A DNA stretch of 45,200 bases from a virus: the IMG/VR virus record IMGVR_UViG_3300035072_000065, positions 1 to 45,200 of that record. One strand, given 5' to 3'. A program made the translations under genes and the position numbers. Shown here piece by piece: positions 1-41,132 of this stretch (position 1 is the first letter of the stretch; every line of letters starts with the position of its first letter). The notes under the pieces are model-generated. The model worked only from the letters and a program-made list of their open reading frames with translations. It searched no databases and was not told the DNA's origin.

Positions 1-120
1 GTGGGCCGCTCGACGCATTACCATGCGACTTACGTGAAGCCGCGCTGGGCGCGCGCGCTGACTCGCATGGATATGATCGGGCGCCACATCTTCTACCGGC
101 TCAAGCCCGGTCAGACCTGA
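1..120 (+). CDS. Cell wall hydrolase, SleB type (3' end; host gene)
   Basis: The window opens inside an open frame that ends at the TGA at 118-120. The 39 visible residues contain STHYHATYV, RWARAL and IGRHIFYRL, which match the conserved C-terminus of SleB/hydrolase_2 cell wall hydrolases common in alphaproteobacteria (peptidoglycan cleavage, usually exported). Only the C-terminus is visible, so the signal peptide and catalytic glutamate are not seen. The gene ends 3 bp before the target-site duplication, so the prophage left it intact. Confidence 0.75.
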   Translation: MGRSTHYHATYVKPRWARALTRMDMIGRHIFYRLKPGQT

Positions 121-122
121 CG

Positions 123-127
123 CGCCG
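123..127. repeat. Target-site duplication, left copy (CGCCG)
   Basis: The five bases CGCCG directly precede the TG that starts the element and recur directly after the terminal CA at 45074-45078. A 5-bp duplication is the hallmark of Mu-family transposition. Confidence 0.85.
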
Positions 128-171
128 TGTAGCGCGCCAAATCAAATGCGAGTCCGCGACAGATCATATGA
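128..171 (+). other. Phage right end (attR) with two transposase-binding sites, R1 and R2
   Basis: R1 is CGCGCCAAATCAAATG at 133-148 (13 of 16 matches to the consensus). R2 is CGCGACAGATCATATG at 155-170, a perfect copy of L1. The two sites lie in the same orientation 22 bp apart, like the adjacent R1/R2 sites of phage Mu. The first site begins 5 bp after the terminal TGTAG. Confidence 0.85.
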
Positions 172-195
172 TGTAGCCCCCAATCTGAGCCAGAG

Positions 196-221
196 GGCCT
201 GTGAGTAGCCTTCACATGGCC
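196..221 (-). terminator. Hairpin between the cysH-like gene and the phage right end
   Basis: GGCC/GGCC and GTGA/TCAC arms can pair around a small loop with one bulge. It lies downstream of the last minus-strand gene and before the end of the element. There is no clear T-tract, so this is a weak terminator candidate. Confidence 0.3.
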
Positions 222-267
222 TTTGAAGCCGCCGCAATCGTGATCTTGGTCTGGTCCTATCAGGGGA

Positions 268-1047
268 TCAGCGATCCAACTCCGGGAACCTGCGCATCCA
301 CGCCCCGAATTCGACCGGATAGACCCGCCGCCAGTCCTCCCAGACGCCCTGCGCTCTTGTTACGCCGCCCGCGCCGGCGGCGAAGGCGATTCCTGATCGC
401 GTCACCTTGCGCCCTCGCGTCGCCAGATCGTAAAGGCGCAACCACGGCAGGCCGCGAGAGACGAGATAGGCCCATATGTCGTCGGCGCACCAATCCCCGA
501 GCGGAGCTGCGATCCTCCGTCCATCCTTCTTTTCGTAGGACAATCCGCGGGTGCGTAGGTTGAGCCGACGGCCAACCGACTCCTCCTTGCAGATGCCGAT
601 CAGCGTCCCTGCCGCCCTGGCGCGTTTCTCGACCCGCTTCGCCGCGGCGTCATACTCCTTCGCCCACCAGGCCAACGCTTGGCGCTGTTCGGCCGTTTGA
701 GCCTCCGAAAAGCCGCTGCCGGCGCGCTCGAACATCTCCCATTCTCCAGGCGTCGTCTCCTCCAAATAAATGGCCTTGGAAAATTCCTCGAGCGCCAACG
801 TCTCGTCTCTCACGCGGTCCTCGTCAGCTATTCGCTCAGCCGGGTTGGGGTAGCGCAAATTGACGATCGGCATGGTTCGGCACGCCGTCACGCATAAATG
901 CGCAAGAACAACCGAATCCTTCCCCCAGCTCGTGGAGACGCAATAGCCGCGATGCGCCGCGATCAGCTCCAGCGCCGCCGCCACGCGGCGCTGAAAAGCC
1001 GGGCGTGCGGCGTGGGCGAGATATCCCGCGCGCTCGATCGGGGTCAT
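268..1047 (-). CDS. cysH: CysH-like PP-loop (PAPS reductase-family) protein of a type IV-B CRISPR-Cas locus
   Basis: 259 residues from the ATG at 1047, chosen because it overlaps the csf3 stop as ATGA (1044-1047); an upstream in-frame ATG at 1104 has a poor ribosome site. The PP-loop motif SWGKDS lies at residues 40-45 and a second conserved patch, ICKEES followed by Arg-rich residues, lies in the C-terminal half. Adenine-nucleotide alpha hydrolases of this fold include PAPS reductase and DndC. A cysH-like gene is a recurrent accessory of type IV-B loci, but its reaction there is unknown. Tight coupling to csf3 argues for a job with the Csf complex rather than in cysteine synthesis. It is the last gene of the phage. 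Involvement in nucleic-acid sulfur chemistry would be speculation. Confidence 0.82.
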   Translation of the reverse strand: MTPIERAGYLAHAARPAFQRRVAAALELIAAHRGYCVSTSWGKDSVVLAHLCVTACRTMPIVNLRYPNPAERIADEDRVRDETLALEEFSKAIYLEETTPGEWEMFERAGSGFSEAQTAEQRQALAWWAKEYDAAAKRVEKRARAAGTLIGICKEESVGRRLNLRTRGLSYEKKDGRRIAAPLGDWCADDIWAYLVSRGLPWLRLYDLATRGRKVTRSGIAFAAGAGGVTRAQGVWEDWRRVYPVEFGAWMRRFPELDR

Positions 1048-1799
1048 GCCGCTGGTCCGATGCAGGCGCGGTGCCAGGGCGCGTGCCAATAGGGCGGCGT
1101 CCATGAGGCTAACGGCTTGACGACGCCATCGGGTTGGCGGCCCGCGTAATACTCGACCGGGGCGTTGCGCATGGCGACGATCTCCTCGACAGAGCGCGCG
1201 CCGGCCGGTGTCACGGTCCAGCGGCCGACGCGGCCATAGCCGATCGAGCCCTTTTTCCCCACATGCGTCACCGCGGCGAGCAATCGCTCGACCTCGTCCA
1301 AGGCGCCAACGCAGAGCCCGAAGAGCCGGTCGACCGCCGCCGTCTGCATCGGCACGCGATATTCTTTCCAGCGCCCCGCCGTCGTCACCGCATTCATACG
1401 GCTTCCCAAATCAGCGCGATGCCCTGGATTGCGCTTGTGCCAATACTCCGCCCCGCGCGCGGCCTCGGCGGCTGGAGTGAGGTCGGACGCGGCCCACAGC
1501 GGCAGGCCATCCTGCGACACCCAAGCCAGCTCGATCGGCAGCGGGATAACAGCCGCCGTGTCGAAACTGCTCGGAGCCGGGTGCAGGGTCATCGCCGCGC
1601 TGGACAGTATCCCGTCGAGATGCAGCGCTCCCAGGCCGACGACCGGAGTCGCCAGCTCTGCGAAGACGACGAGCGGCTCCTTCGCCGCCGTCGCCCATTC
1701 GTCGCGCTGATCCTCCCAGCTCTTGGTGCGCACGCCGCGCCGGAAGGGCGAGACGCGCGGGAGGGGCGCCAGGGCTCCCCAATCGCTCAGGCCGCGCAT
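1044..1799 (-). CDS. csf3: Csf3 (Cas5-type RAMP subunit, type IV-B CRISPR-Cas)
   Basis: 251 residues from the ATG at 1799, which overlaps the 3' end of csf2 by 13 bp. The same frame stays open further upstream, but that part is antisense-like and rich in Arg. The C-terminal half has HVGKKGSIGYGRVGRWTV (residues about 182-199), the Gly-rich loop plus G-x-G-R-V-x-x-W pattern typical of Csf3/Cas5-like RAMP proteins. In type IV effectors Csf3 caps the 5' handle end of the guide RNA and contacts Csf1 and the first Csf2. The start has little ribosome-binding sequence, so translation is probably coupled to csf2. It sits between csf2 and the cysH-like gene, as in other IV-B loci. Confidence 0.82.
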   Translation of the reverse strand: MRGLSDWGALAPLPRVSPFRRGVRTKSWEDQRDEWATAAKEPLVVFAELATPVVGLGALHLDGILSSAAMTLHPAPSSFDTAAVIPLPIELAWVSQDGLPLWAASDLTPAAEAARGAEYWHKRNPGHRADLGSRMNAVTTAGRWKEYRVPMQTAAVDRLFGLCVGALDEVERLLAAVTHVGKKGSIGYGRVGRWTVTPAGARSVEEIVAMRNAPVEYYAGRQPDGVVKPLASWTPPYWHAPWHRACIGPAA

Positions 1800-2629
1800 A
1801 GCGTCTTTGCCGTGCCAAGCGTGCCGGAGATGAGGCCCGCGCGCATCTCGTCTCTGCGCGCCTCGACATGGGCGACATAGAGATCGCCGGTGGGCGCGCC
1901 ATTGGTGAGGGTCGCCATGCGCCCGCGCCCCTGTCGGCTCTGGCCGCCAAAGAACCCGTCCCAAATCGATAGCGCATGGCCGATCGCCGATAGCGTCACA
2001 TCTGGCGTGTGATGGTCGGTTGTAAGTTCGACGAGGATCTTCGCCCCGGCCGCCAGCGTCTCGTAGCCGTAGAGCATCTGATTGCCGGCGCTTTCGGCGC
2101 CCGTCCCGCGCACGCGCGTTTCGTCGGCAAGGAGATCGTAGGCGCTGACCGCGCGCGCCTCTTCGACCAGCTCCGGCGCGACGCGCTCGATCGCCTGGGC
2201 ATATTCGCTCGCGACAATCCACGCGCAAATTTTGAGGCGCGAACGCGGGAGAATGAAACCGTCGACCGCGCCGCCAATAAGGTCAAGGCTCGGATAGAGC
2301 CGCTTGACGGCGTGCCCGAGCGTGATCTCGTCTCCAGGAGCGCGCGATCCAGCCGCCATGGCGCCCCCGGAATAGAGCAGATTGACCACGGCCTGCGGCA
2401 GGCTCCCCCGCTCGATCCCGAGCCGCGAAACGAGGTCGTCAGCGAGCGTCTCGCGGAAGACGACTCCGCGCAGGGCATTCTCGGAGATGCTCGGCACGCG
2501 GCCCGGCTTGCCGTCGACGAGCATCTGTTGGCGCATGAAGAGCCGCGTATTTGTGGAGTTGTCGACACCCGTCACTGTATCGCCGTGGGAAATCGGGGTG
2601 AGGGCCTGCAAAACGATTTTAAAGCGCAT
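1787..2629 (-). CDS. csf2: Csf2 (Cas7-type backbone subunit, type IV-B CRISPR-Cas)
   Basis: 280 residues, ATG at 2629 preceded by AAAGGA 8 nt upstream. The N-terminus MRFKIVLQALTPISHGD is the first RAMP beta strand followed by the S-H-G turn seen in Csf2/Cas7 proteins. NALRGVVFRETLADDL and a Gly-rich SRQGRGRMA segment near residue 230 fit the RNA-binding core. Cas7-type subunits polymerise along a guide RNA and form the backbone of the complex. Size is close to known Csf2. The neighbours (csf1, cas11, csf3) support the assignment. No active site for target cleavage is expected. Confidence 0.85.
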   Translation of the reverse strand: MRFKIVLQALTPISHGDTVTGVDNSTNTRLFMRQQMLVDGKPGRVPSISENALRGVVFRETLADDLVSRLGIERGSLPQAVVNLLYSGGAMAAGSRAPGDEITLGHAVKRLYPSLDLIGGAVDGFILPRSRLKICAWIVASEYAQAIERVAPELVEEARAVSAYDLLADETRVRGTGAESAGNQMLYGYETLAAGAKILVELTTDHHTPDVTLSAIGHALSIWDGFFGGQSRQGRGRMATLTNGAPTGDLYVAHVEARRDEMRAGLISGTLGTAKTLCAA

Positions 2630-2640
2630 TTGAGCGTCCT

Positions 2641-3090
2641 TTAAATTGGCATGTCATCATTCAGGGATGGGTCGGCCGCGGCCTCATTCGCCAGTTCTTC
2701 CTCCGGCTCCTGCCACGCGCGGCGCGTCGCCTTGTCGGCGTCGTGGAGCATGCGAGCGAGCGAGACGATGCTCGCTGTTTCCGTCGCGAGACGCATCAGC
2801 ACGGCGCGGCCGTCCGGCGCCGAAAGCGCCGCGACGATCGCCTGATCCGCTTTCTTCGGCGGCACAGGCCAGCTCATCCGCCGCAGGAGGATCGCCCAGA
2901 ACCGTGTGAGATTGTTGGCCTGGACCGCAGAGATTTCGACGCGTCCCGCCAGGACGGCGTAGCGCGCGACGCCGGAAAACAGCCCGGTCCCATCGCGCGA
3001 GTTAAAGCAGTCGAGGGCAATCTTCACGATCTGAATAGCCGCGCGCTGCGGCGGCTCAAGGGTTTCGACGAGTTGGGCTGCGCTTGGCAT
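2641..3090 (-). CDS. cas11: Cas11-type small subunit, type IV-B CRISPR-Cas
   Basis: 149 residues, predicted almost entirely helical, with an acidic C-terminal tail. ATG at 3090 has AAGGAG about 10 nt upstream and lies within the 3' end of csf1 (35-bp overlap). Small alpha-helical subunits at this position in type IV loci are Cas11 proteins, which line the belly of the effector and contact the displaced strand or help assembly. Sequence conservation in this family is low, so the call depends mainly on size, helical content and position between csf1 and csf2. Confidence 0.72.
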   Translation of the reverse strand: MPSAAQLVETLEPPQRAAIQIVKIALDCFNSRDGTGLFSGVARYAVLAGRVEISAVQANNLTRFWAILLRRMSWPVPPKKADQAIVAALSAPDGRAVLMRLATETASIVSLARMLHDADKATRRAWQEPEEELANEAAADPSLNDDMPI

Positions 3091-3796
3091 CCTGCTTCTG
3101 CTCCTTGGTGACGCCAGCCATGATGAGAGCTGGCAAAAATTCCGGACGGCCGCGCAAGGGTGCGAGGCTTTGCTCTAGCACGAGCGCCTGCGCCGGATCG
3201 CTCGACGCGCGGGCATGATCGGCAAAAAGTCCCGAGCGCACGCTCGCCTTGGACCATCCGCGCCGTAGCGCCGGCAAAATCGCGTCGATCGCCGCGAGAC
3301 AGTCGGCGAGGCCGAAATCGACCCATTGCGAGAAGTCGTAGTCTGTCGCGTGGACATAGAGCCCGAAACGATCAATCGTCGCGACGCGGCATCGCGGCCA
3401 TAGGCGCGGCTTGACGTCCGTCGTCAGCACGCCGGTGACGCGCGCGTCTTTGGGCAGAGCCGCGAGATCGCGGATGATCTCGATCCATGGCCGTTTATCG
3501 GTCACGACGCTCTCGAGCGAGATGACCGCATATTCCAGCTTGTTCGACGTCGCGACGAAATTTCCGGGCCTTCCCTTTCCTGCGGAGAAGAGCCATGCGC
3601 AGGCGTCGCAGACGCCTGTCGATCCGAAGCGGAACACATTCGCATGATCCGCCATCGTCGGCGTCTCGATCTCCGACAGGACGACCCCGCCATCAGACTC
3701 ATGGGAGCAGACAGCACAGACGAAATGTGACGCTATGCGAGGATACGCATGCGCGGGACGGCTGGCTGCCTTCCAAATGATTTGAGATGCGCTCAT
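3056..3796 (-). CDS. csf1: Csf1 (zinc-finger Cas8-like subunit, type IV-B CRISPR-Cas)
   Basis: 246 residues from the ATG at 3796, chosen for the GGGCAGGA ribosome site just upstream; the frame remains open further upstream into low-quality sequence. It has a four-cysteine zinc finger, C27-AV-C30 and C63-DA-C66, the diagnostic feature of Csf1, the type IV signature protein that takes the place of the large subunit. It opens the cassette 74 bp downstream of tail gene D. Csf1 in family members recognises the RNA 5' end together with Csf3. No nuclease or helicase motif is visible. The divergent rest of the protein is normal for this family. Confidence 0.8.
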   Translation of the reverse strand: MSASQIIWKAASRPAHAYPRIASHFVCAVCSHESDGGVVLSEIETPTMADHANVFRFGSTGVCDACAWLFSAGKGRPGNFVATSNKLEYAVISLESVVTDKRPWIEIIRDLAALPKDARVTGVLTTDVKPRLWPRCRVATIDRFGLYVHATDYDFSQWVDFGLADCLAAIDAILPALRRGWSKASVRSGLFADHARASSDPAQALVLEQSLAPLRGRPEFLPALIMAGVTKEQKQDAKRSPTRRNP

Positions 3797-3850
3797 ATTT
3801 CCTGCCCTTATGGTCGGCGCGCGGGCCGATCCGCCAAGACTGACCCGCGT

Positions 3851-3864
3851 CCGGGGCAACCCGG
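3851..3864 (-). terminator. GC-rich hairpin between tail gene D and csf1
   Basis: CCGGG-GCAA-CCCGG on the plus strand (CCGGG-TTGC-CCCGG in the minus-strand transcript) forms a 5-bp stem, and flanking G/C runs allow a longer one. It lies directly after the stop of gene D and before csf1. There is no T-run, so it may be a weak terminator, attenuator or RNA-stability element that separates tail genes from the Cas cassette. Confidence 0.35.
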
Positions 3865-3869
3865 CCCCG

Positions 3870-4877
3870 CTACCCTGCCTGCTGCTGCTCCTCCTTCGGC
3901 TCGCAATCCATCCGCACCACCAGCCCATCGGCCGAGAAGCCGAAGAGCCGGCGCTTCACCGTCCATTCCCCGTCGTCGTCGTCGCCGAAGCCCTTCGTGG
4001 TCGCGACGCCGCCGGGCGCCAGCCCGACCTGGCCGGGGGCGCGGGTGCAGTTGAACCTCTTGGTCTCGCGGTCGAACTTCTTCTTGCGCGAGAGCGCGAT
4101 CCACTTCGCCTCGACCTGAGTCCCGTAGATTTGCGGGGCGACATAGTCGGGAACGCCGTCGCTCTGGACGCCGCCCTGGCTCTCCTCGGTCGAGCGCTTG
4201 GCCTTTGAGCGGTCGTAATGCACCGCCTTGCCCTTGCCGCGCTCGTTGCGCGCACCCTGGCTGAAGGAGAAGCCCTCGCAATCGTTAGGCGTGATGGTCT
4301 CGCTGCCGGCGTCCTGGCCGGACGCCGTCTTGCCCGCGCCCTTCTTCACGAAGACAAGCTTCTTGTTCTGGAATTTCGACAGCGCGTTGAACTGCCGGGC
4401 GAGGCGGGTCACGAGATGCATGTCGGACTCGCCGGTCTGGGCGATGATTTTTTCGATCTCGATCGACCCCAGCTCCTCGTCGACCGCCAGCTCGAGCTGA
4501 TTGTCCTTGGCGACGTCCTCCAGCACGTCCTTGAGCTTCTTGCCCTTGGTCCAGCTGCGGGTCTTCTGTTCCTTGAGCGTCTTCTTCAGATCGGCCGAGT
4601 GGCCGGTGATCTGGAACTCGGCGCGCGGCCCGTTCTTGACGATCTCGGTGATGACGAACTGGCCGACCTTGACGGCGCCCGTCTCCTTCCAGCCGAGCCG
4701 CACCATCACCGTCTCGTCGGTCTTTGGCTTCCTCAGCCGCCCGTCATAGTTCGAGACCGCGATATGCAGCTCGTCGGCGTGCTCGCCGTCATATTCGACG
4801 ATCTGGCCGGACAGCGTGCGCTTCTGGAAACCCGAGAGCGGCGTCCCGCCGAGCGAGATTTCGACGAAGGGCGTCAT
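3870..4877 (-). CDS. D: Late control protein D, baseplate hub (P2 gpD family)
   Basis: 335 residues. The N-terminus (VEISLGGTPL) and the GESDMHLVTRLARQFN segment near residue 150 are typical of phage late control D / VgrG-like hub proteins, which form the threefold adaptor between tail tube and spike. It closes the P2-type tail operon (U-X-D order) and starts ATGA-coupled to gene X. An acidic DDDD run near residue 300 and a Gln-rich C-terminus are local oddities. Confidence 0.85.
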   Translation of the reverse strand: MTPFVEISLGGTPLSGFQKRTLSGQIVEYDGEHADELHIAVSNYDGRLRKPKTDETVMVRLGWKETGAVKVGQFVITEIVKNGPRAEFQITGHSADLKKTLKEQKTRSWTKGKKLKDVLEDVAKDNQLELAVDEELGSIEIEKIIAQTGESDMHLVTRLARQFNALSKFQNKKLVFVKKGAGKTASGQDAGSETITPNDCEGFSFSQGARNERGKGKAVHYDRSKAKRSTEESQGGVQSDGVPDYVAPQIYGTQVEAKWIALSRKKKFDRETKRFNCTRAPGQVGLAPGGVATTKGFGDDDDGEWTVKRRLFGFSADGLVVRMDCEPKEEQQQAG

Positions 4878-5092
4878 GACCAGAGATCAATCGTGGCGAT
4901 CTCGCGCGGCGCGGGCGCCGGCAGATCGGGAAGAACAATCGTGACGTTCTCGGGCAGGATCGGATCGCGCTCGCAGAGGCCCGGATTGGCTGCGAGGATC
5001 ACCTCGGTCGTCCCGCCATGCTCGGAGCCGTAGTAGCGATAGGCGATGGCGTCGAGCATGTCGCCCTGCTTGGTGACGTAGGTCCGGCTCAT
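4874..5092 (-). CDS. X: Tail protein X (LysM-like)
   Basis: 72 residues. The TKQGDMLDAIAYRYYG start is the gpX/LysM-type signature: a small baseplate-associated protein that may bind peptidoglycan during penetration. ATGA overlaps at both ends place it in a translationally coupled chain between a small protein and gene D. Confidence 0.85.
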   Translation of the reverse strand: MSRTYVTKQGDMLDAIAYRYYGSEHGGTTEVILAANPGLCERDPILPENVTIVLPDLPAPAPREIATIDLWS

Positions 5093-5349
5093 CCCTCATC
5101 CTCCGCTTCGCGGCGGCGATAGTCTGCGACCTCCTCCGCCGTCATCAGGCGCCAATCGTCGGCGGTTCCTGAGCCAATCAGGTTGGAGATGACCCCGTCC
5201 ACGTCGACCTTCTGGGGGTCGATCTGGGCGATCGAGCGCAAGCCGGCGATGCCGACCTTGGCCTCCAAGCCAGTCGAGGGCGACGTGAAATAGGCGTTGA
5301 GCGTGACGTCGAAACCAGCCGGCAAATCGATCACGGCCACAGACTCCAA
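5089..5349 (-). CDS. Small phage tail-operon protein, unknown function
   Basis: 86 residues, overlapping the end of gene U by 19 bp and coupled by ATGA to gene X. It has a short hydrophobic N-terminus and an acidic/Arg-rich C-terminus. I do not recognise a family. Its place between U and X implies a structural or assembly role in the tail tip. Confidence 0.6.
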   Translation of the reverse strand: MESVAVIDLPAGFDVTLNAYFTSPSTGLEAKVGIAGLRSIAQIDPQKVDVDGVISNLIGSGTADDWRLMTAEEVADYRRREAEDEG

Positions 5350-5747
5350 ATCTGCCCTTCGCCATCGTCATGGGCGAAGAACTCCAGCTCATAGACCTGC
5401 TTTTGCGGGGCGCCCGAGGGCAGATGGTCGGTCGCGCCGCGCTCGGCGCGCTCCAGCCGATAGGGCCCGACGATGGTCCCGTCGGCGGCGGCGAGGATCG
5501 AGACCTGTCCCGAGCGGCAGGCCTGGAACAGCGCCTGGATGGTCGCCGATGAGCCGATGCCCGCGATCGGATAGATCGTGCCCGTGAGCAGCACGCCCTC
5601 GTCGTCGGGGCCGAGATATTGCCCGGCCGGCCGGCGGCCGATAATCGGATGGCGCTCCCAACGCGCCGCGACGCGCTCGCGCAGCCGCTCGAAGGCGGTT
5701 TGTCCGACCTCGAAGCGGAAGGAGCCCCAGCCCATGAGCACGTCCAT
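5331..5747 (-). CDS. U: Tail terminator-type protein U (P2 gpU family)
   Basis: 138 residues. MGWGSFRFEV near the N-terminus and the late YELEFFAHDDGEG segment fit the P2 gpU family, which caps or completes the tail. It follows the tape measure gene with a 2-bp gap, the standard P2 order. Confidence 0.85.
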   Translation of the reverse strand: MDVLMGWGSFRFEVGQTAFERLRERVAARWERHPIIGRRPAGQYLGPDDEGVLLTGTIYPIAGIGSSATIQALFQACRSGQVSILAAADGTIVGPYRLERAERGATDHLPSGAPQKQVYELEFFAHDDGEGQIWSLWP

Positions 5748-5749
5748 GA

Positions 5750-7645
5750 TCAGTGCGCCTCCGGCCCGTCATGGAGCGCGTGCGACCCCGCCGCCACGCC
5801 GCGCCGCACGGCCGCGCCGGTCGCCGCGGCCTTGGCGCCAAGGCCGGAGAGCGCGCCGGACAATTCACGCGCCAGGCTGAGCGCCTGCGCCAATTGTGAG
5901 GTGTCGACCTGCGGGCGCGCCGTGACGTTGAGCCCGGCGAGGATCTGCTGGCCGATGGCCTGCGCCTCGCTGCCCGCGCCCTGCAGTCCGCTCGTGTCCA
6001 CTTTCGGCTGCGCGGTCACGCCGAGCGCCTGCATGATGGTTTGGCCCGCGCGTTGGGCGGCTGTCTCCGCGCCCTGTATCTGCGAGAGATCGACATGCGG
6101 CGCTGCGTTCTGGCCGTTGAGCCCCGCGAAGGTCGGGAGCGCCGGGCCGGAGGGAATTGTCTTCGGCGCCTCAGCGACGCCGCCGGAGTAGGACGTCCCG
6201 CGTTTTCCCCGCGAGATCGCCGTTTGCACGAAGCCATAGGTCGGGATCAGAGCCGCGGGAGCCTCCCGCTTGACGCCATCAAGGCTGAGCCGCCTTTCGT
6301 AGTTTTCGCGCGCCTCGCCCTGTCCGCGGGCGGCGCGGGCCCTGTCGAGCCGCGCCTTTGCCTCGGCGTCCGTCGGGGAATAGATGATCGGCTTGTCGGG
6401 ACCGTCCTTGAAGCGGTGATAGGCGTCGAGCAGCTCCTCGAGCTGCTTGTTGATCGGCGGCAACGCCCAGCGCATCAGCTCGTCGCCGATCTCCGAGACC
6501 ATCGCCTTGGTGCGTTCGAGATGATTGGCCGTCGTGTCGAGGTCGATGGCGAGGTTCTTGTCGAGCGACCCTTTCCACTTGCCGCTGTGGAGCATCTCCA
6601 GCTGCTTGCGGATTTCGGGCAACGCCTGGCCCGCGCGGGTCGCCTCGTCCCACCATTGCTGGCCAAAAAGCTGGACGCCGATTTGCGCCTTGTCGGGGCT
6701 TTTTTCGAGTCGGTCGAGAATATCCAGGACCGTCTTCGTGGCGTCGGCCTTCATGCCGCTCGCCACGCGGTCGAGCGAAAGCCCCAGCGCCTCGAAGCCT
6801 TCGGCCGCCTGTTTTGCGCCGCGGCCGCCCATGCCCGCCGTCGCCAATTTCGAAGCGAAGGCGTTCCAGAAGCGGGCCGCGGTCGACTCCTCCATGCCGG
6901 TCGATTTCAGCGCGGTGAGCGCGGCGAGCGACGTCTCCAACGGAACGCCCGCGGCTTTCGCCGCCGCGCCGGATCGCTGGAACATCTCCACGATGTCCCG
7001 CTCTTTCGCGGCCGAACTATCGCCGGCTGCGTTGACCTGGTCCGCGAAATCCTTGAGCTGCGGAATGGTCCACTGCGTCTGGGCCTTGATCTGCGCGAGC
7101 CGATCGGCCGCGTCTTCGGCCGACATATCCCAGGCGGAGGCCGCCTTGGCGGCGAGCATCATGAAGCCGCCGAGGTCTTTGTATTCGATCCCGGCCTGAC
7201 CGGCCGTCGCGGCAAGCCCCGCGACATGCTCGCGAGAGATGCCGATCTCGCGCGAGGTGCGGTTGATCAGGTTTTCAACGTCGCGCCATTCCGCGCCGGG
7301 ATCGAGATCGACCTTCTTTTTGACGTCGGCCATCGCCTTTTCGAAAGAGACGGCTTGCTTCAGCCCGTAGCCCGCGAAGCCGGCTCCCGCCGTCGCCGCC
7401 GCGCCCACCGCCTGGGCGGCGACGCCCGCGAGCGCCAGGCGATAGTCATTGGCCTCCTTCGTCGCCTCCGCCGCGCCCTTGCGCGCCGCCATCCAATCGC
7501 TCGCGCGCACCTTGCCGCCCGCCGCCTGCGCGGCGTTCACACGATCGGCTGCGCCCTTGAGGCGGTTGAGTTCGCCTTCGACGCCGCGCAGCGGTCCTGT
7601 CGCCCGGTCCACCAGGCGCAGGATCATCTCGACGGACATGCTCAT
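5750..7645 (-). CDS. Tail tape measure protein
   Basis: 631 residues. A helical N-terminal region (RATGPLRGVEGELNRLKGA) precedes a TP901-type tape measure core (EKAMADVKKKVDLD, SREIGISREHVAGLAA). An Ala/Gly-rich hydrophobic stretch lies near residues 75-105. The protein sets tail length and is ejected with DNA. At about 0.15 nm per residue, the length suggests a tail of roughly 95 nm (inference). It follows the E/E' chaperone gene, as in P2 and lambda. Confidence 0.88.
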   Translation of the reverse strand: MSMSVEMILRLVDRATGPLRGVEGELNRLKGAADRVNAAQAAGGKVRASDWMAARKGAAEATKEANDYRLALAGVAAQAVGAAATAGAGFAGYGLKQAVSFEKAMADVKKKVDLDPGAEWRDVENLINRTSREIGISREHVAGLAATAGQAGIEYKDLGGFMMLAAKAASAWDMSAEDAADRLAQIKAQTQWTIPQLKDFADQVNAAGDSSAAKERDIVEMFQRSGAAAKAAGVPLETSLAALTALKSTGMEESTAARFWNAFASKLATAGMGGRGAKQAAEGFEALGLSLDRVASGMKADATKTVLDILDRLEKSPDKAQIGVQLFGQQWWDEATRAGQALPEIRKQLEMLHSGKWKGSLDKNLAIDLDTTANHLERTKAMVSEIGDELMRWALPPINKQLEELLDAYHRFKDGPDKPIIYSPTDAEAKARLDRARAARGQGEARENYERRLSLDGVKREAPAALIPTYGFVQTAISRGKRGTSYSGGVAEAPKTIPSGPALPTFAGLNGQNAAPHVDLSQIQGAETAAQRAGQTIMQALGVTAQPKVDTSGLQGAGSEAQAIGQQILAGLNVTARPQVDTSQLAQALSLARELSGALSGLGAKAAATGAAVRRGVAAGSHALHDGPEAH

Positions 7646-8698: not shown

Positions 8699-9925
8699 TC
8701 AAACCTGCTGCGCGATCATCGCGGAAATGTCGGCGAGGTAGCCGCTGTAGTAGCTGGCGTTGCGCTGCGCCTTGTAGACGAGGTGCTCCATGGGAACGAC
8801 CGGCTCCGGATCGATGCGCCAGACCCACACGCCGGAGGCCATTTGCTGCGGCGTGTTGTCCTCCGGATCGAGCCACACCCGCCCGCCGACAAGCCAGCCC
8901 TGCGCCTTGCCGAAGTTGATGAAGTCCATCGCGCGCTCGGTCACGTCGAGCAGCAGCTGCCTCGTCGCCGGCTTGTCGACCGCCCACAGCGTCGCCTCGT
9001 CGAGCGCCTCGTAAACAGCGTCCGCGATGGTGCGCACGCTTTCGAAGACCCAATTGGCGTCGTCGGCCGTGGTGCGGTTGCCCCAGCGCCGCCAGCCGCC
9101 ATATTGAACGCCGCTCGCCGCGCCCATGTTGATCATGGTGGCGATGCGATTTTCGTTGAGGATGTTCGCCTCGGAGTCGGGATCGCCCGACGCCCAGCCG
9201 ACCGGATTGGAGACGCCGCCGATCGACTGCAGCACCTGGTTCGAGGGCGAGAACCAGAAGCCCAGATCGCGATGCACGCGCGCCGTAAGGCCCGCGAAGG
9301 CTGCCTCCGCCGGGCGCGTCACATAGGCGCTCGTCGCCGGGTCCCAGCCGAGGATGTTGGGATAGATCGGCGTCAGCCGATCCGAGGCCCAATCCTCGCG
9401 CCATTGCATGGCGTCGTCGGTGCTGGTCGAGGGCGTCGAGGCGTAGACGCGTCCGCGCAGCCGCGCCGCAATGGCGGTCGCCGCCGCGACAACGGGGTTG
9501 GAGCCGCCTTCTGGGCGCTGCGAGGTAAAGCCGGGGATGACGATGGTGCGCGGCATGACGCCGGTGTGGGCGCGCGCGCCGAGCAGCGCATAGAGGCCCG
9601 TCTTGGAGCTTTGCGCACCGATGATGTTCGTCATCGTGGCGTCGGCGTTGTTCCCTTCCTCAACGCGCACCACGATCGCCGCGCCGCCGCCCTCGGCGTA
9701 GAAGTCGCGCACGGCCGCGCCGAGCGTGCCGCTCGCGCCGAGCAGCGAGGCCTTCTGCGGCTGCGAAGTCAGGAGAACGGGCGTATCGGGCGGAAAGGCC
9801 GCATCATCGGCGTCGGCCGCCGTGCCGACGATCGCCGCCACGGCCATTTTGTTGATCTGGACGGGCTGGTTCGCATTCGGAACCTCGATCGTCTCGACGC
9901 CGTGGAGAAACTGCGCGATCGACAT
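8699..9925 (-). CDS. FI: Contractile tail sheath protein (FI family)
   Basis: 408 residues. MSIAQFLHGVETIEV, KMAVAAIVGTA, and the C-terminal region with RVWLDPEDNTPQQMASG and WRIDPEPVVPMEHL are diagnostic of the P2 FI/phage sheath family. It begins the promoter-distal late transcript downstream of the CTGACA box at 10015. Its presence shows a myovirus morphology. Confidence 0.92.
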   Translation of the reverse strand: MSIAQFLHGVETIEVPNANQPVQINKMAVAAIVGTAADADDAAFPPDTPVLLTSQPQKASLLGASGTLGAAVRDFYAEGGGAAIVVRVEEGNNADATMTNIIGAQSSKTGLYALLGARAHTGVMPRTIVIPGFTSQRPEGGSNPVVAAATAIAARLRGRVYASTPSTSTDDAMQWREDWASDRLTPIYPNILGWDPATSAYVTRPAEAAFAGLTARVHRDLGFWFSPSNQVLQSIGGVSNPVGWASGDPDSEANILNENRIATMINMGAASGVQYGGWRRWGNRTTADDANWVFESVRTIADAVYEALDEATLWAVDKPATRQLLLDVTERAMDFINFGKAQGWLVGGRVWLDPEDNTPQQMASGVWVWRIDPEPVVPMEHLVYKAQRNASYYSGYLADISAMIAQQV

Positions 9926-19214: not shown

Positions 19215-20111
19215 TCAATCGAGCCAGGGCACGTTCACCACTTCGACGATCTTGTAGAGCGTGTTGGTGGTCGCGCCGATGATCTGCGCCTCGATCAGCG
19301 CGCGCGCCGCGAAGTAGGTCGAGGGGCCGCAGAGCATCACCTGCGGCTTGATCCCGAGCTTGCGGCCTTCGTCGCTCTCGAGTCGCGTCATCGCCGTGTA
19401 AAGCGCGATCACATTCGCGGCCGTGACGTCGGCTTTCGACGCCGCCGCCATCTGCCAGAACCCGAAGCCCTTGCCGGCGCGAAGATCGACGCCATACAGG
19501 AACTCCTTGGTCATGAACACATGGTCGCTATTTTTCGGATCGACCTTGCTGATGAACTGCGGCTTGCGGCGCCACTGCCAGATCATCGGCTTAATCGGAC
19601 GACTGATGTCGAGGAGAAACCAGGCCGGCCCCGTTCCCGCCTGATAATTCGAAACCGATCTGACGAGGGTCTGGCCGGGGATGCCGACCGGATGATCGGT
19701 ATCGAAAAAGTTCTGCCCGTCATAACACAGGGTCGTGAAGCCGGCGTTGAGGAGGCCGAACATTTCTTCGTCGGGGAATGAACCCGCCGACATTCCCATC
19801 GCCTCCATCAGCGGGCCGTAGACGTTCCACTGATCGTCCTCGATATCGTCGCGCGGGACGCTGACCGTCGCCTCAAACGGTTTATTCGGCACCTCATAAC
19901 CTTTGGCGACGACCGATTTGATCTGACGATCGCCGATCCATTCGCGCATCTTCGGGAACTGGCCGAGCCAGGCATACATATTAGTCTTGGTGCTGGACGG
20001 CACTTCCGTCGCAAACCGCGTCCACATCGGCGAGACGCCGTCGAAGGCGCGCTGGAAATTGGCGCGGTAAGCGGTGTTCAGGAACTCGACGTTCGCATGA
20101 TTGATGATCAT
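19215..20111 (-). CDS. Major capsid protein (Mu gpT family)
   Basis: 298 residues. FLNTAYRANFQRAFDGV, KMREWIGDR and FFDTDHPVG are hallmarks of the Mu major head subunit (gpT, HK97 fold; usual length about 300). It follows a small decoration-like gene. Forms the icosahedral shell. Confidence 0.93.
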   Translation of the reverse strand: MIINHANVEFLNTAYRANFQRAFDGVSPMWTRFATEVPSSTKTNMYAWLGQFPKMREWIGDRQIKSVVAKGYEVPNKPFEATVSVPRDDIEDDQWNVYGPLMEAMGMSAGSFPDEEMFGLLNAGFTTLCYDGQNFFDTDHPVGIPGQTLVRSVSNYQAGTGPAWFLLDISRPIKPMIWQWRRKPQFISKVDPKNSDHVFMTKEFLYGVDLRAGKGFGFWQMAAASKADVTAANVIALYTAMTRLESDEGRKLGIKPQVMLCGPSTYFAARALIEAQIIGATTNTLYKIVEVVNVPWLD

Positions 20112-20577: not shown

Positions 20578-21108
20578 TCAGTCGGCTTTGCTTCGAAATT
20601 CGGATTTGGCTTCCCGCTCGGCCTCACGAGCCGCGAGAAACTCCTTTTCGCTGACGCCGGCCATTTGCAGATAGCGACGCTCGTCGGCGTTGAGCTGCAC
20701 GCCGTCCTTGCCGGCCTTCGCCTCGTCGTCGAGGCCCGCCTTCGCGAAATGCGACGGCTGCTTGGCGACGAAATCCTGCACCTGCTTGAGGCCGTCCTCG
20801 CTCGCGCAGAGCTTCAAGTAGAAGTCCTTCGTCGCCGGGGCGATCTTGCCGTCCTTCACGGCCTGCTCGACGAGCGCCTCGCCCTTCGCCTTGCGCTCGC
20901 TCTCATCGCGGGCGTTGAGCGCCGCGCGCGCTTCGTCGCGCTGCTGGCAGGCGAGATCGTAATCGGCGCGCGGCACATAAACGGAAAGAGAAGGCGTCGC
21001 GTCCTTCGCGGCGTTGAGCTGCGTCTGCAGCCTCTCGATCGCCGCGAGGACTTCCGCCTCGGTCGCGTTCTCCGCGAGGCCGAGCCTTTTGAGCAGTTCC
21101 TTGTTCAT
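20578..21108 (-). CDS. Internal-start scaffold form (gpZ-like) within the protease gene
   Basis: In-frame ATG at 21108 (MNKELLKRL) is preceded by GAGGAG about 9 nt upstream, giving a 176-residue product. In Mu the scaffold gpZ is made from an internal start in gene I. The segment is charged and helical, as expected of a scaffold. The extra start is inferred from this precedent and the ribosome site. Confidence 0.5.
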   Translation of the reverse strand: MNKELLKRLGLAENATEAEVLAAIERLQTQLNAAKDATPSLSVYVPRADYDLACQQRDEARAALNARDESERKAKGEALVEQAVKDGKIAPATKDFYLKLCASEDGLKQVQDFVAKQPSHFAKAGLDDEAKAGKDGVQLNADERRYLQMAGVSEKEFLAAREAEREAKSEFRSKAD

Positions 21109-21621
21109 GAGGTTCTTCTCCTCGGCCGCATTGAGCGCCGGCATGGTGAAGTTCGGATCGTTGACGAGGCCCGCGTGCGCCAGCTCGACGACGTCGCCGT
21201 CGGCGGTCACGCGCAATGCGGGCGAAATGTAGCGATAGTCCTTGCCGGCGAGGGCGGCCGAGCCGCGCGCCGTCCAGTCGACGCGGCCCCAGACCGCGCC
21301 GTCGCGCACCGCCATTTCCTCGATCCAGCCGGCGGCCGGACTTTCCTCGCCCTTCGGAGCCTTGTGGGCCTGCGCGTGGTTGATGTCGATCGGACGGGAG
21401 AGGCCCCGCGCCTTGAAGGCGTCGACGATCTTCTGAGGGTCGCGCAATTTGAACACGCGACCGTCATTGCCTTTGATCTGCGGTCCTCTCGGGACCAGCA
21501 TGATCCACTCACATGGGGCGCCCTCCGCGTTGAGCGAGATCGCAAGCGCTGCGCCGAGCGTCGGAGCGTCTTGGCTCGCGGCGTCGTTCAATGCGATTTG
21601 ACTTGCGTCGGCTCGGATCAT
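20578..21621 (-). CDS. Head maturation protease with scaffold domain (Mu gpI family)
   Basis: 347 residues. The N-terminal half has the Mu protease signature: IMLVPRGPQIKGNDGRVF, PIDINHAQAHK with the active-site-like histidine near residue 83, and YRYISPAL. Residues after about 170 form a charged coiled-coil scaffold. First gene of the transcript downstream of the CTGACA box at 21659, as gene I is in Mu (promoter PI). Confidence 0.88.
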   Translation of the reverse strand: MIRADASQIALNDAASQDAPTLGAALAISLNAEGAPCEWIMLVPRGPQIKGNDGRVFKLRDPQKIVDAFKARGLSRPIDINHAQAHKAPKGEESPAAGWIEEMAVRDGAVWGRVDWTARGSAALAGKDYRYISPALRVTADGDVVELAHAGLVNDPNFTMPALNAAEEKNLMNKELLKRLGLAENATEAEVLAAIERLQTQLNAAKDATPSLSVYVPRADYDLACQQRDEARAALNARDESERKAKGEALVEQAVKDGKIAPATKDFYLKLCASEDGLKQVQDFVAKQPSHFAKAGLDDEAKAGKDGVQLNADERRYLQMAGVSEKEFLAAREAEREAKSEFRSKAD

Positions 21622-21861: not shown

Positions 21862-22059
21862 TCATTGTGGGCGGTCGTCGCCGAATTCGTCCCAGAGGAA
21901 GGCGTCGCTGGGGGTCCCGTCCGCGTCGAGGTCGCACAACTCGCCCGCCGCCTCGCCGCGCCTACATTTGTCGAGGTATTTCTTCTGAGCCTGGGTCAGC
22001 TCCTCGTCCCCCGGCTCGGGGTCGGCGAGCACGGGGCCCTTCTGTTTAGCGGTTGGCAT
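21862..22059 (-). CDS. Small acidic protein, unknown function
   Basis: 65 residues, acidic, with a KKYLDKCRRGE centre. Overlaps the end of the gpF-like gene by 14 bp, so translation is probably coupled. No family recognised. Confidence 0.5.
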   Translation of the reverse strand: MPTAKQKGPVLADPEPGDEELTQAQKKYLDKCRRGEAAGELCDLDADGTPSDAFLWDEFGDDRPQ

Positions 22060-24022
22060 AGGCCGTAAACCTCGTCATCGTCTCCTCGTCGCGCAAATCG
22101 AGGATGCCCCGCCAGTTCTCGTTTTGCAACAGCGCCTGACCGACCGTGGCCATCCGACCTTTGCCGAGCCTGACCTTTGTCGCGCCGCGCAGGTCGGAGA
22201 CGCGCCAGATCGCCTTCGGGTCGTCTGACTCGAGCACGTCGAGCGCGGTTTTGAGGTCGTCCGCGCCGATGACGTCGAGGCCGGCGAGATTTTGAACCTT
22301 AAAGCGTAGGCGCTGGCGCATCGCGAGCCACTCGGCGCGCTCTGGCGCGAAGCCGAATTTCGCCCATGTGTAGGAGCCGGCGTCTATGTTCGCCTGCGTC
22401 GTCACGCGCCGCACGCCCATGCGCCGGTATTCCGCCATGGCGTTGCGCAACATCGTCACGCCGATGCCGGAGCCCTGCAGATCGTGACGAACCAAGAAAA
22501 ATGAATGAACGACAGTGAGCTCCCCCTCTGCGTCCATCGCGTAGGTCCGGTTGAGCTCGGCGACGCGCCGGCGACCGTTCTTGAGGACCATCTCGGTCCC
22601 GATGGAGGCGGGCTTGCCCGGCTTGCCGGCGCCAGAAATCTTGACGGACATGCGCTCCGCCGGCGCCCCCTTGACGAGGGCGGCGAAGAAATCCGCTGGC
22701 TTCTTGCCGATCACTCGTTGCCAGGTCTCGGCGAAAACCTCCGCGCTATCGGAGGTCCCCCAGAGCAGGATTCCGGGGCGGTGGAAATCCTTGCCCGTCA
22801 CGACGACCGGGCGCGCGCTCTCGATTTCTTCCCGCGCGACGTCCGCGGCCTCCCGCGCGCGCCCACGCGATAGCTGCTCGACATAGACCGACTGGCCGTC
22901 ATCCTCGACGCGCAGCTTCGCGCTCATCGCCTCGCCGGCGACGACGCCGCGAATGACGCCGTCGTCGCCCATCGCGCCTTCGTCGAGGAGCTGCTGAAGA
23001 TAGGCGAAGTCGTTCGGATCGGCGGCGATGACCTTGGCGTCGCGCACCGAGAGGCGCACCGTTCGCGCGCTGGCGTCGAGCTTCTTCGCGAGGCGACCGG
23101 GAAGCGCCGCGAAGGGCGCGGCGATCTGGCCGCGCGCGAGATTGGCGGGGTCGGTCGAATGCGGGTCGAAGGGAAAGACGCCTTTCGCGATGGCCCGAAA
23201 GAGCGCCGAGCCGGCGAGGTCGGCCGCCGCAATGCGCCGCGTGGCCTCGTCCATCTGGTCGATGCGGCCGGCGAGGAGATCGGCCGCGCGCTTCATGCGC
23301 GCCTTGCCGGGATTGTTATTCCATCCGGCTCCGATGCCGTTCGGAACCTCCATTACCTGGCCGGTGCGCTTGTTGACCTCGTAGCGTGTGCCAAAGTCGA
23401 TCGGCCTCTTGCCAAAGCCGGCCTTCGTCTTTGCTTCCGCCTCGCTGATCTGCCGCGTGCGGCACTGGCATTCGAAATCATTTGGGGGGAAATGTTCGTC
23501 CCACCATTCGTCTTCGACAGGCAGCACCGTGCCCACCCAGGCGAGATGTTCCGGCCTCGGGTCCAGCGCCGTCGTGTGGAGGTATTCGAGATAGGGCAGA
23601 ACCCGGCGTGTGCGCCATGACCGCTCCCATTCGCCCGCCGCATAGGCTGTGCGGATGTTCGCCTCGTAGATGAGCTTCAAGCGCGCCGGCGAGCCAAGCC
23701 GCACGGTCATGGGCTTGCCCGTGTCGGGGTCGATCGCCTTGGCGCGGCCCCACCAGCCCTTCTTCTGCAGGATCGGCGTCAGCTCCTGCCGGAACTGCTC
23801 GAAGTCCTGGCGCTCCTCGATCGCCTTGTCGACTGCGGCGCGGATGTCGGCGAGGACGTCGTAGCCCGCGCTCTTCGCGACCGTGAAGGCGTAAGCATGC
23901 TCGTCGAGCATGACGTCCTGCCAGTGGAAGGACGGCTTCAAGCCCTTGGCCTTGAAGTAGCGCAGCACCTCTTCGGGCGGCTTGGCGAATTCTTTCGGCG
24001 CGAAGGGGTCGGCTTCAGCCAT
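22046..24022 (-). CDS. Mu gpF-like head morphogenesis protein with C-terminal GNAT-like domain
   Basis: 658 residues, longer than Mu gpF (about 430). Residues 115-190 carry the Phage_Mu_F core: ANIRTAYAAG, ALDPRPEHLAW, and the C-x-C near PPNDFECQCR. Residues about 380-450 are of unknown type. Residues about 470-562 look like an acetyltransferase fold, with an FFLVRHDLQGSGIGVTMLR stretch (Q516-x-x-G-I-G, acetyl-CoA loop) and NIDAGSYTWAKFGF (the aromatic-G-F strand of GNATs). The head part assembles at the portal; the C-terminal part could be a virion-borne enzyme or toxin-like payload (inference). ATG at 24022; overlaps the portal stop by 8 bp. Confidence 0.75.
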   Translation of the reverse strand: MAEADPFAPKEFAKPPEEVLRYFKAKGLKPSFHWQDVMLDEHAYAFTVAKSAGYDVLADIRAAVDKAIEERQDFEQFRQELTPILQKKGWWGRAKAIDPDTGKPMTVRLGSPARLKLIYEANIRTAYAAGEWERSWRTRRVLPYLEYLHTTALDPRPEHLAWVGTVLPVEDEWWDEHFPPNDFECQCRTRQISEAEAKTKAGFGKRPIDFGTRYEVNKRTGQVMEVPNGIGAGWNNNPGKARMKRAADLLAGRIDQMDEATRRIAAADLAGSALFRAIAKGVFPFDPHSTDPANLARGQIAAPFAALPGRLAKKLDASARTVRLSVRDAKVIAADPNDFAYLQQLLDEGAMGDDGVIRGVVAGEAMSAKLRVEDDGQSVYVEQLSRGRAREAADVAREEIESARPVVVTGKDFHRPGILLWGTSDSAEVFAETWQRVIGKKPADFFAALVKGAPAERMSVKISGAGKPGKPASIGTEMVLKNGRRRVAELNRTYAMDAEGELTVVHSFFLVRHDLQGSGIGVTMLRNAMAEYRRMGVRRVTTQANIDAGSYTWAKFGFAPERAEWLAMRQRLRFKVQNLAGLDVIGADDLKTALDVLESDDPKAIWRVSDLRGATKVRLGKGRMATVGQALLQNENWRGILDLRDEETMTRFTAYANR

Positions 24023-31079: not shown

Positions 31080-31475
31080 CTAAAAGAGGTCGCCTTGGTC
31101 GCCTCTGTTCGAACTGCGCAGCCGCGCCTTCACCCGGCTTACAGTGCGCACATGCATGTCGGTTGCGAGCGCTACGGCGTCGAGGCTCTGGCCTTCCGCG
31201 AGGCGCTCGGCGGCAAGGCGGCGCCGGCGCGACAGATAACCCTTCTCGCCAAGCGGAATGAGCACGCGGCCGCCGGCGAAATGGGCCCCGAGCCGATCGG
31301 CCGCCTCGCGTCCGACAAGCTCGACGAGCCAATGCCCGTCCGGCGCGCGTTTCGGGATTCCTACCCTCACCCCGCCATGGGTGTGCATCAATTGCAGCGC
31401 CGCCGGCAGGCCGGCGACGCGCGCGATCTCTGCGAGCGTCGGCGGGAGGTAGGCGTAGTCGTCGGACTCGATCAC
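31080..31475 (-). CDS. Mor/C-family transcription activator
   Basis: 131 residues from the GTG at 31475 (GGAGG 7 nt upstream; GTGA overlap with the methyltransferase stop). YLPPTLAEIARVAGLPAALQL and the beta segment GRVLIP-G match the Mor dimerisation domain; the C-terminal QSLDAVALATDMHVRTVSRVK is its helix-turn-helix. Mor and C of Mu turn on middle and late promoters. Only one such gene is present, so this protein likely activates late genes directly from the CTGACA boxes. Confidence 0.85.
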   Translation of the reverse strand: MIESDDYAYLPPTLAEIARVAGLPAALQLMHTHGGVRVGIPKRAPDGHWLVELVGREAADRLGAHFAGGRVLIPLGEKGYLSRRRRLAAERLAEGQSLDAVALATDMHVRTVSRVKARLRSSNRGDQGDLF

Positions 31476-32044
31476 GCGGATTCCTCCGGCGCGAAGAAGT
31501 CGACCTGGTTGCCCCAATGGTCCCAGCCGGGACGCTGGCAGCGCGAGAACAGCTCCAGCTTGCGCACGCGCGGGAACATGCGCTCCAGCTGCTCGTGAAG
31601 CTCGTCGGGCTTGCGCGATGACTCGCGGATCGGGGCTTCGATGTAATTGCGCTCGCTGTGCGAGCAGATTTTCGGGCGGCCGATGGAGCCGGCGAGGTAA
31701 GGTTCTCCCGCCTCGCGCCACCAATGCCCCTTGCCGAAGTGACGTGCGTTTCCGGTTCGAGTGAGCTTGCCCCAGAAGCCCATGGTCTTCGGCTCGAAGC
31801 CCCAGCGTTTCACGAGATCGACCGCAAAGGCGATCTGCTCGGGGGTGAACCACATCACCAACGCGCAGTTGGGCGCGGCGAGCTTGTGGACCGGAAGGCG
31901 CATCAGCTCGCTCTTCGTCATCGTCTGATAGGGGACGCCCTTCGCGTTCCCGCGCTCGCTGAAGGTCTCGAAGCGCCAGGGCGGGTCCGCGAGGATGAGC
32001 CCGTAGGAGTGCGGATGGAGATCGCCGAAGGGCCAATCGCTCAT
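31472..32044 (-). CDS. MT-A70 family DNA adenine methyltransferase
   Basis: 190 residues from the ATG at 32044 (ATGA overlap). The DPPW motif lies at 20-23, with SAM-binding ALVMWFTPEQ further on and WGNQVDFF at the end. MT-A70 phage enzymes methylate adenine in DNA, giving protection from restriction. In the early operon, just before the Mor/C gene. Confidence 0.88.
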   Translation of the reverse strand: MSDWPFGDLHPHSYGLILADPPWRFETFSERGNAKGVPYQTMTKSELMRLPVHKLAAPNCALVMWFTPEQIAFAVDLVKRWGFEPKTMGFWGKLTRTGNARHFGKGHWWREAGEPYLAGSIGRPKICSHSERNYIEAPIRESSRKPDELHEQLERMFPRVRKLELFSRCQRPGWDHWGNQVDFFAPEESA

Positions 32045-38920: not shown

Positions 38921-39007
38921 AGTGGCGATGTTCCGTTTGTCTGAAAGGTCGCTGGCTGCACCCGGCGGCCTTTCGCTTTTCAAAAACTCACTCGATCGAA
39001 CGCTTAC

Positions 39008-41128: not shown

Positions 41129-41132
41129 GACG

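Follow-up and report, generated by a model that had tools for sequence, protein, structure and literature searches.

Type IV CRISPR-Cas systems have previously been reported in plasmids and in some phages and prophages (PMC11656645), and type IV-B also in an archaeal virus (PMC10848311). In the solved Mycobacterium type IV-B complex, which derives from a megaplasmid, Csf2 and Cas11 form a filament along heterogeneous RNA whose length is regular (PMC7937560). A classification update describes type IV-B as being without effector nucleases (PMC12669027), and the role of type IV-B is treated as an open question (PMC7937560, PMC8175902, PMC11656645). Here we analyse a 45,200-base virus record from IMG/VR (IMGVR_UViG_3300035072_000065), a single contig that is called the window at its full length; compared records are designated by L numbers. 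The window carries a complete array-less type IV-B operon, and the remainder beyond this cassette is a Mu-type phage. Our literature search, which stayed mostly below the full text, did not turn up type IV-B in any Mu-like phage or as a replacement for a methyltransferase.

A type IV-B operon within the ends of a Mu-type phage

The five genes csf1, cas11, csf2, csf3 and cysH-like are all present on the minus strand at positions 268-3796, in the order given by a preliminary description of this DNA (Table 1). They form one compact operon of overlapping or abutting genes, in which csf1 overlaps cas11, csf2 overlaps csf3, and the csf3 stop and the cysH start lie in a common ATGA. We refined the gene ends from the sequence and from relatives. 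The longer cysH frame from 1104 is improbable: most relatives start near 1047, and the first 20 residues have a low predicted local distance difference test (pLDDT) score. For csf3, the profile searches began at codon 1790 instead of the ATG at 1799.

For the five proteins of the cassette, PADLOC returned a mix of type IV and type IV-A labels (the best profile for csf2 is labelled CAS-IV-A effector_G7), so that the profile names show type IV and do not settle the subtype. Csf2 matched the Csf2 of the solved type IV-B complex (7jhy) at 1.4e-9. With NCBIfam, Csf3 (2.8e-14) and Csf2 (0.0012) both stayed below curated cut-offs, and the only Pfam match above cut-off in the cassette was PAPS_reduct in the cysH-like protein (6.3e-9). 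The PADLOC match of Cas11 (1.3e-4) is weak alone, and homologues in 16 of 17 relatives back the assignment. For Csf1, the cysteines of the four-cysteine site noted earlier, C27, C30, C63 and C66, are invariant in 15/15 sequences. The AlphaFold2 model of Csf1 (mean pLDDT 90) matched only 7xg1_A and 8rc3_G at E <0.001, one chain per type IV-A complex, with VIA Z of 11.7 and 13.3, respectively. We take these two chains to be Csf1 on the basis of their length (240-241) and the full-length match. The profiles and folds thus place the proteins in the type IV Csf families; an assignment to other families, which the preliminary description had named as a refutation, did not result. As a separate observation, a chain named Cas7c in PDB entries 11fs, 11hc and 11hd matches the Csf2 profile at 5.7e-5. 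Chance open reading frames were also considered and rejected on the profiles, the fold and the conserved gene order.

The ends of the element are TGT...ACA at 128 and 45073, with CGCCG flanking both, and they share CGCGACAGATCATATGA in inverted orientation. The target duplication is weak evidence by itself: the comparison took in about 325 TG/CA pairs, and another 5-bp match turned up (172/45054). The right-end pattern recurs in six sister contigs (L068, L070, L071, L072, L073 and L074), where similarity ends within about 2 bases of it, and the left terminus has a close counterpart at the host junction in L036 and L041. What decides the matter is the agreement of the window termini with sister-phage ones, which puts the cassette within the element, beside gpD. 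When the two flanks are joined, a minus-strand frame of the second flank spans the junction and ends just past it, near the stop of the first-flank gene. With MuA and MuB-like genes, head and tail genes, TG...CA inverted ends and a 5-bp duplication, the window is a Mu-type phage, whose replicative transposition and induction are presumed. Profiles, folds and termini together support the earlier view that a transposable phage carries, close to its right end and within it, a complete type IV-B set as cargo. The opposing case named at that time, a host remnant outside the element, was rejected, the cassette being inside termini (128/45073) that match sister phages.

It is very improbable that the cassette is a decayed passenger, a host remnant or an assembly artefact. 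Such a reading would fit a record that is a single virus contig and of which no close copy was found, in database scans that may leave out records very near the window. The present data nevertheless already contradict decay, remnant and artefact, as five frames are open, the relatives are under purifying selection (ratio of non-synonymous to synonymous rates, dN/dS, of 0.02-0.34 for the five genes in close pairs), the cassette lies within the matching termini, and other viral contigs show the same gene order.

The window yielded no CRISPR array, neither as a CRISPR-like repeat family nor by an exact-repeat scan, which leaves room for a degenerate or single repeat. The same scan of L002-L025 gave matches only in L006, inside a pentapeptide-repeat gene, and in L009, in a low-complexity repeat. 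Within the operon, to which the PADLOC run applies, there is no cas6, adaptation gene or dinG; the absence of cas6 and DinG follows from the five genes filling the whole space from gpD to the right end. Rfam and tRNA scans of the window gave no match, and a promoter and terminator scan of positions 1-5500 gave a count not above that of shuffles. One rival reading is that the complex takes guides from host or other arrays and silences competing plasmids or phages, as type IV-A does on plasmids (PMC11656645). The Csf1 fold shared with type IV-A complexes speaks for such rival exclusion, but with no array found in the window, no cas6 or DinG in the operon and the CysH module unaccounted for, we regard it as quite unlikely.

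The right-end slot in sister phages

In Mu, the com/mom region separates the last structural genes from the right end, and Com is the partner of Mom there. Relatives of gpD identified 12 sister Mu-like contigs (L067-L078; gpD identity 47-84%), two of which (L075 and L077) end at gpD and are excluded from the slot count. A DNA methyltransferase was found downstream of gpD in 10/10 sister contigs extending past gpD, which are distinct records and not all independent. The enzyme is of the D12 class in eight (L067, L068, L069, L070, L072, L073, L076 and L078) and of the C5 class in two (L071 and L074); Pfam, run on five of the ten, confirmed all five (three D12 and two C5), and the other five were assigned by 67-83% identity to the enzyme of L034. 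In the six contigs with a visible right terminus, the methyltransferase ends 59-112 nt from it, and CysH of the window ends 140 nt from its own. In the window, therefore, the type IV-B cassette occupies the slot that holds a methyltransferase in its sisters, which is also new. No D12 match was found in eight distant gpD relatives (L079-L086; 26-28% identity).

The C5 enzyme is preceded by a Com-like zinc-ribbon gene, matching PF10122 at 3.8e-5 in L074 (over the cut-off) and at 6.5e-5 in L071 (0.2 bits under). Since Com partners Mom at the right end of Mu, both the content and the position of the right-end slot identify it as the com/mom slot, and the analogy with com/mom drawn in the preliminary description has gained strength from the sister methyltransferases, two of them behind a Com-like gene. 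A Com-like frame was found neither in the window nor in the compared contigs other than L071 and L074, and in L034 a small frame of 134 codons without Pfam match precedes the methyltransferase. The pairs of Com-like zinc-ribbon and C5 methyltransferase stand where Mu has mom, at 4908-6003 in L071 and 6060-7197 in L074.

The position in place of a methyltransferase suggests that the complex helps to protect or modify the phage's own genetic material, and the slot evidence leans towards protection or counter-defence over rival exclusion.

Table 1. Features of the window, with positions, strand and supporting matches.
Feature	Position	Strand	Support
Host flank, C-terminus of cell-wall hydrolase (SleB-like) gene	1-120	+	translation resembles by eye the C-terminus of the Hydrolase_2 gene flanking the right end of sister L034
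Target-site duplication CGCCG, right copy	123-127	.	adjoins right terminus
Right terminus TGTAGCGCGCC..., with two repeats resembling transposase sites	128-171	.	terminal pattern also in six sister contigs
cysH-like (PP-loop ATP pyrophosphatase fold, without reductase cysteine)	268-1047	-	PF01507 6.3e-9
csf3 (Cas5-like)	1044-1799, ATG at 1799	-	PADLOC 1.3e-34; TIGR03116 2.8e-14
csf2 (Cas7-like backbone)	1787-2629	-	PADLOC 1.1e-32; 7jhy_e 1.4e-9
cas11 (small subunit)	2641-3090	-	PADLOC typeIV_Cas11 1.3e-4
csf1 (Cas8-like large subunit, four-cysteine site)	3056-3796	-	PADLOC 8.2e-9
gpD-like baseplate hub, last structural gene before cargo slot	3870-4877	-	PF05954 8.1e-9; phrog_52 1.2e-68
Tail sheath	8699-9925	-	phrog_23 3e-91; PF04984 2.4e-8
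Mu-like major head protein gpT	19215-20111	-	PF10124 1.1e-111
Mu-like prophage I protein	20578-21621	-	PF10123 1.3e-48
Mu F-like minor head protein	22046-24022	-	PF04233 9.5e-11
Mu portal protein	24015-25703	-	PF06074 3.9e-106
Terminase large subunit	25703-27310	-	phrog_2 1.9e-29
MT-A70-type methyltransferase, outside right-end slot	31472-32272	-	PF05063 2.9e-31
Mu GemA-like	34033-34734	-	PF06252 9.1e-26
MuB/TniB-like AAA ATPase	38177-38983	-	phrog_296 5.3e-38; PF05621 7e-11
MuA-like transposase	39008-41182	-	phrog_310 8e-104; rve, Mu-transpos_C, HTH_Tnp_Mu_1
HTH-S24 repressor-like gene	42766-43473	+	PF00717 2.7e-14; PF01381 2.1e-6
Left terminus, inverted relative to the right one	45047-45073	.	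left termini TGTAACGCGACAGATCA in L036, L041
Target-site duplication CGCCG, left copy	45074-45078	.	adjoins left terminus

The phage genes of the window also include a DUF3164 gene, a gene for a phage protein with a DnaA C-terminal helix-turn-helix domain (35974-36762; PF08299 5.9e-29) and, directly upstream of the MuA-like transposase gene, a gene for a ParB-like protein (41336-42184). The insertion lies a few to a few tens of bases past the stop of an SleB-like hydrolase gene both in the window (1-128) and in L034 (8650-9294). The end in L041 (2993-3160) is about 75 bases from a tRNA-Phe gene, and L036 has the same flank by sequence. These recurring flanks suggest that this Mu family may prefer particular sites.

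The Csf2 lineage and its CysH-like protein

We found 17 further loci with Csf2 at 44-70% identity, 13 of them viral and from IMG/VR (L002-L014) and four from GTDB genomes titled MAG (metagenome-assembled genome; L015-L018). IMG/VR was queried with Csf2 and Csf2 alignments; the GTDB loci came from a second scan, the first having given none. Isolate phages in INPHARED gave no match with two Csf2 queries, and a TIGR03115 search of the class to which the L017 genome belongs (274 genomes) gave 7 matches, one over the cut-off. Plasmid matches numbered eight records and reached 24-31% identity within the aligned part; six of these records were inspected. In a tree of 25 Csf2 sequences, from which L014 was excluded as too short, a branch with support 97/95 separates the window and 16 relatives (phage or MAG) from the other sequences. 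Judged by sequence, the window cassette is thus part of a mostly viral Csf2 lineage, which is a new finding. The deep placement relative to the type IV-A row has support 79/86 and is weak because of very long branches.

The order csf1-cas11-csf2-csf3 is kept in the loci that have all four genes, except in L009, where csf1 is last; in L002, two other genes follow csf1. A cysH-like gene lies downstream in 15/17 relatives, about 3 kb off in L010, and is missing from L002 and from L004, whose contig ends inside csf3. The phage character of the loci other than L005, L015, L016 and L018 is indicated by hallmarks. Portal_Mu was found in 5/14 records (L003, L006, L007, L008 and L009) and a tyrosine integrase in 5/14; L002 has a terminase, L011 a terminase and a portal, L014 a portal and L012 a tape-measure match. 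Phage replication or integration families occur in L010, L013 and L017, and YqaJ and RecT genes in L004.

The model of CysH (pLDDT 89) has a PP-loop ATP-pyrophosphatase fold, with the closest VIA matches at Z up to 16.0 for adenosine 5'-phosphosulfate (APS) and 3'-phosphoadenosine 5'-phosphosulfate (PAPS) reductases, 15.1 for the PAPS domain of FAD synthase and 15.0 for CysD. The residues S59, G61, K62, D63, S64, G170, E175, R179, P201, W205, Y225 and R236 are invariant in 15 sequences, and an SxGKDS-type P-loop is present. The test for the catalytic cysteine of PAPS reductases failed, as no cysteine column was common to more than 4 of 16 CysH sequences. CysH is therefore unlikely to be a PAPS reductase, and its homology predicts the activation of a substrate with ATP. 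Both the lack of the cysteine and a role in adenylation have already been proposed for type IV-B (PMC8175902).

We compared the distances of the other cassette proteins with those of Csf2 across 14 cassettes, a set from which L004 and L014 had been taken out and which L002 and L015, each without one of the genes in the data, could not join. The rank correlation was 0.89 for Csf1, 0.83 for Cas11, 0.51 for Csf3 and 0.19 for CysH, values reached by 0, 0, 13 and 83 of 1000 permutations, respectively. The CysH tree, built with an N-terminally trimmed L018 protein, places L015 together with the window, L010 and L016 (99/99), a grouping rejected by Csf2 in the approximately unbiased (AU) test (p 0.0005). 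Conversely, CysH rejects the joint group of L003, L005, L007, L008 and L015 of the Csf2 tree (AU p 0.00015); the Csf2 clade of L003, L004, L005, L007, L008 and L015 had only moderate support, 80/86 or 92/87 in two trees. Csf2 does not reject holding L003, L006 and L017 together (p 0.249). The clades for the AU tests were named after the trees had been seen. CysH would appear, as a new finding, to have been exchanged between cassettes while Csf1, Cas11 and Csf2 diverged together. Such an exchange with the filament genes staying together points to CysH as an activity or specificity module.

These results on CysH also bear on the idea that the cassette is a guide-RNA sponge, in which the Csf filament would bind small RNAs without sequence preference and titrate host CRISPR RNAs or other guides as an anti-CRISPR, with CysH being ancillary. 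The idea is already in print (PMC8175902) and agrees with the binding of heterogeneous RNA of regular length by the Mycobacterium complex (PMC7937560) and with the lack of a detected array in the window. It leaves unexplained, however, both the presence of cysH in 15/17 relatives with an invariant P-loop and its apparent exchange between cassettes, and we consider a sponge possible at a rather low probability.

Enzymes of nucleic-acid modification are found near some of the cassettes. L002, which has no cysH, has QueC (6.6e-54) and a gene weakly matching the PHROG queuine tRNA-ribosyltransferase family (0.0018) between csf1 and cas11 (4414-5855). That family, presumably phage DpdA, has a strong member (3.6e-73) after cysH in L015. 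Next to cysH, L013 has an N6/N4 methyltransferase (5.3e-8), as does L010 with a match below the cut-off (2.5e-4), and L006 and L009 have methyltransferases farther upstream. Separately, a PAPS-reductase-family or DUF3440 gene lies near a ParB-like gene beside type IV-B in a phage (L010, 10430-12090) and in two haloarchaeal plasmids (L023, 7889-9651; L024, 7364-9441).

Possible function and comparison with known systems

A role in counter-defence or nucleic-acid modification, with the Csf filament presenting substrate to CysH, is in our view the most likely reading, ranked ahead of the guide-RNA sponge, an unlinked moron and rival exclusion, in that order, and is put forward tentatively. In the course of events that we infer, from late expression through assembly, recruitment of CysH and its chemistry to a benefit for the phage, the operon would be read together with the late tail genes. 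Csf2 and Cas11 would polymerise on RNA from the infected cell, and Csf3 and Csf1 would cap the filament, as in Mycobacterium type IV-B. From the filament, the CysH-like enzyme would then receive nucleic acid in a bound or base-paired state, and its PP-loop would activate a group with ATP (adenylation with pyrophosphate release) and would not reduce sulfur. As a result, host defence might be blocked or phage nucleic acid marked as protected, like the outcome of mom or a methyltransferase in the same slot. A bolder and doubtful proposal is that the RNA filament of type IV-B serves as platform for an exchangeable PP-loop enzyme, which would modify nucleic acid chemically under the direction of RNA. 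Phages would have this system instead of mom or the methyltransferase, for the protection of their genome or against host defence, and would swap CysH to alter chemistry or target. The solved type IV-B complex is from a megaplasmid, and a cassette in the methyltransferase slot of a transposable phage opens the role of type IV-B to a direct genetic test.

Several observations weigh against a counter-defence or modification role. The phage retains an MT-A70 methyltransferase elsewhere in the window. The substrate of CysH and its recruitment to the Csf complex are both putative. The modification-enzyme neighbours were scanned in some of the relatives, without a phage background rate, and the low CysH correlation could partly reflect the divergence of CysH (mean identity 0.33). 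The dN/dS values come from relatives only, because the synonymous distance of the window was not computable in 6/9 comparisons and exceeded 1.6 in 3/9. The window is also the sole cassette-bearer found in its Mu family. The preliminary description had proposed looking for the cassette in other Mu-like prophages, and this did not bear out a wider presence: Csf2 was found in 0/35 Mu-like records, many of them fragments, with 2/2 known carriers detected as controls, and an earlier Csf2 search of 26 Mu-like records, run without a positive control, likewise gave 0. The MuA profile phrog_310 matched 0/15 of the relatives' cassette contigs, with one weak partial match (1/15) on another contig of the L017 genome. 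The MuA of the window as query found 0/9 records; Mu-transpos_C found 0/14, a null that says little since its positive control gave no match either.

Finally, the cassette is placed elsewhere in other phages, for example before a primase-like gene in L003 and next to genes for portal or terminase in L007, L011 and L014, so that the slot may be no more than a place for cargo. The cassette would then be a moron, of benefit to the lysogen or active in the tuning of transcription, with a right end that merely tolerates cargo and is unlinked to DNA modification. The GC content at third codon positions (GC3) is, as for cargo, lower in the cassette genes (0.71-0.82) than in gpD (0.92) and several structural genes. 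It is 0.75-0.88 in nine other phage genes, and gpT (0.81), MuA (0.82) and MT-A70 (0.75) fall within the cassette range. A moron unlinked to modification is at odds with the methyltransferase in the slot of 10/10 sister contigs with sequence there, and we judge it unlikely.

Among the known systems, plasmid type IV-B loci (Mycobacterium sp. JS623, PMC7937560; Rhodococcus and Mycolicibacterium records L020, L021 and L025) resemble the window in having genes, annotated as hypothetical, at the csf1, cas11 and csf3 places around Csf2, two ahead of it and one behind. The Csf2 proteins of L020, L021 and L025 are about 26-27% identical to that of the window over the matched part. A PAPS-reductase-family gene is nearby in the plasmids as well, but upstream and on the opposite strand, whereas that of the window is the last gene of the operon, and the carrier of the window cassette is a transposable tailed phage. 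In a Thermococcus nautili plasmid (L022), the gene at the csf3 place (5339-6082) is annotated as Cas6 and may be Csf3. The fuxivirus type IV-B, from a Bathyarchaeia virus, is virus-borne with cysH next to csf3, as in the window, but this archaeal virus has a two-repeat mini-array (PMC10848311), and no array was found in the window.

The type IV-A complexes 7xg1 and 8rc3 have the Csf1 fold in common with the window, whose operon is without DinG, cas6 and an array but has Cas11 and CysH. PAPS/APS reductase and CysD (4bwv and 1zun; VIA Z 16.0 and 15.0) have a fold like that of CysH, which differs from them by lacking the conserved cysteine and by its GKDS P-loop. The com/mom region of Mu is an accessory module at the same right-end place as the window cassette. 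Mom, however, is a single DNA-modifying enzyme, whereas the window, with no Com-like frame found, has at this place a five-gene set that combines a complex of an RNA-binding type with a PP-loop enzyme.

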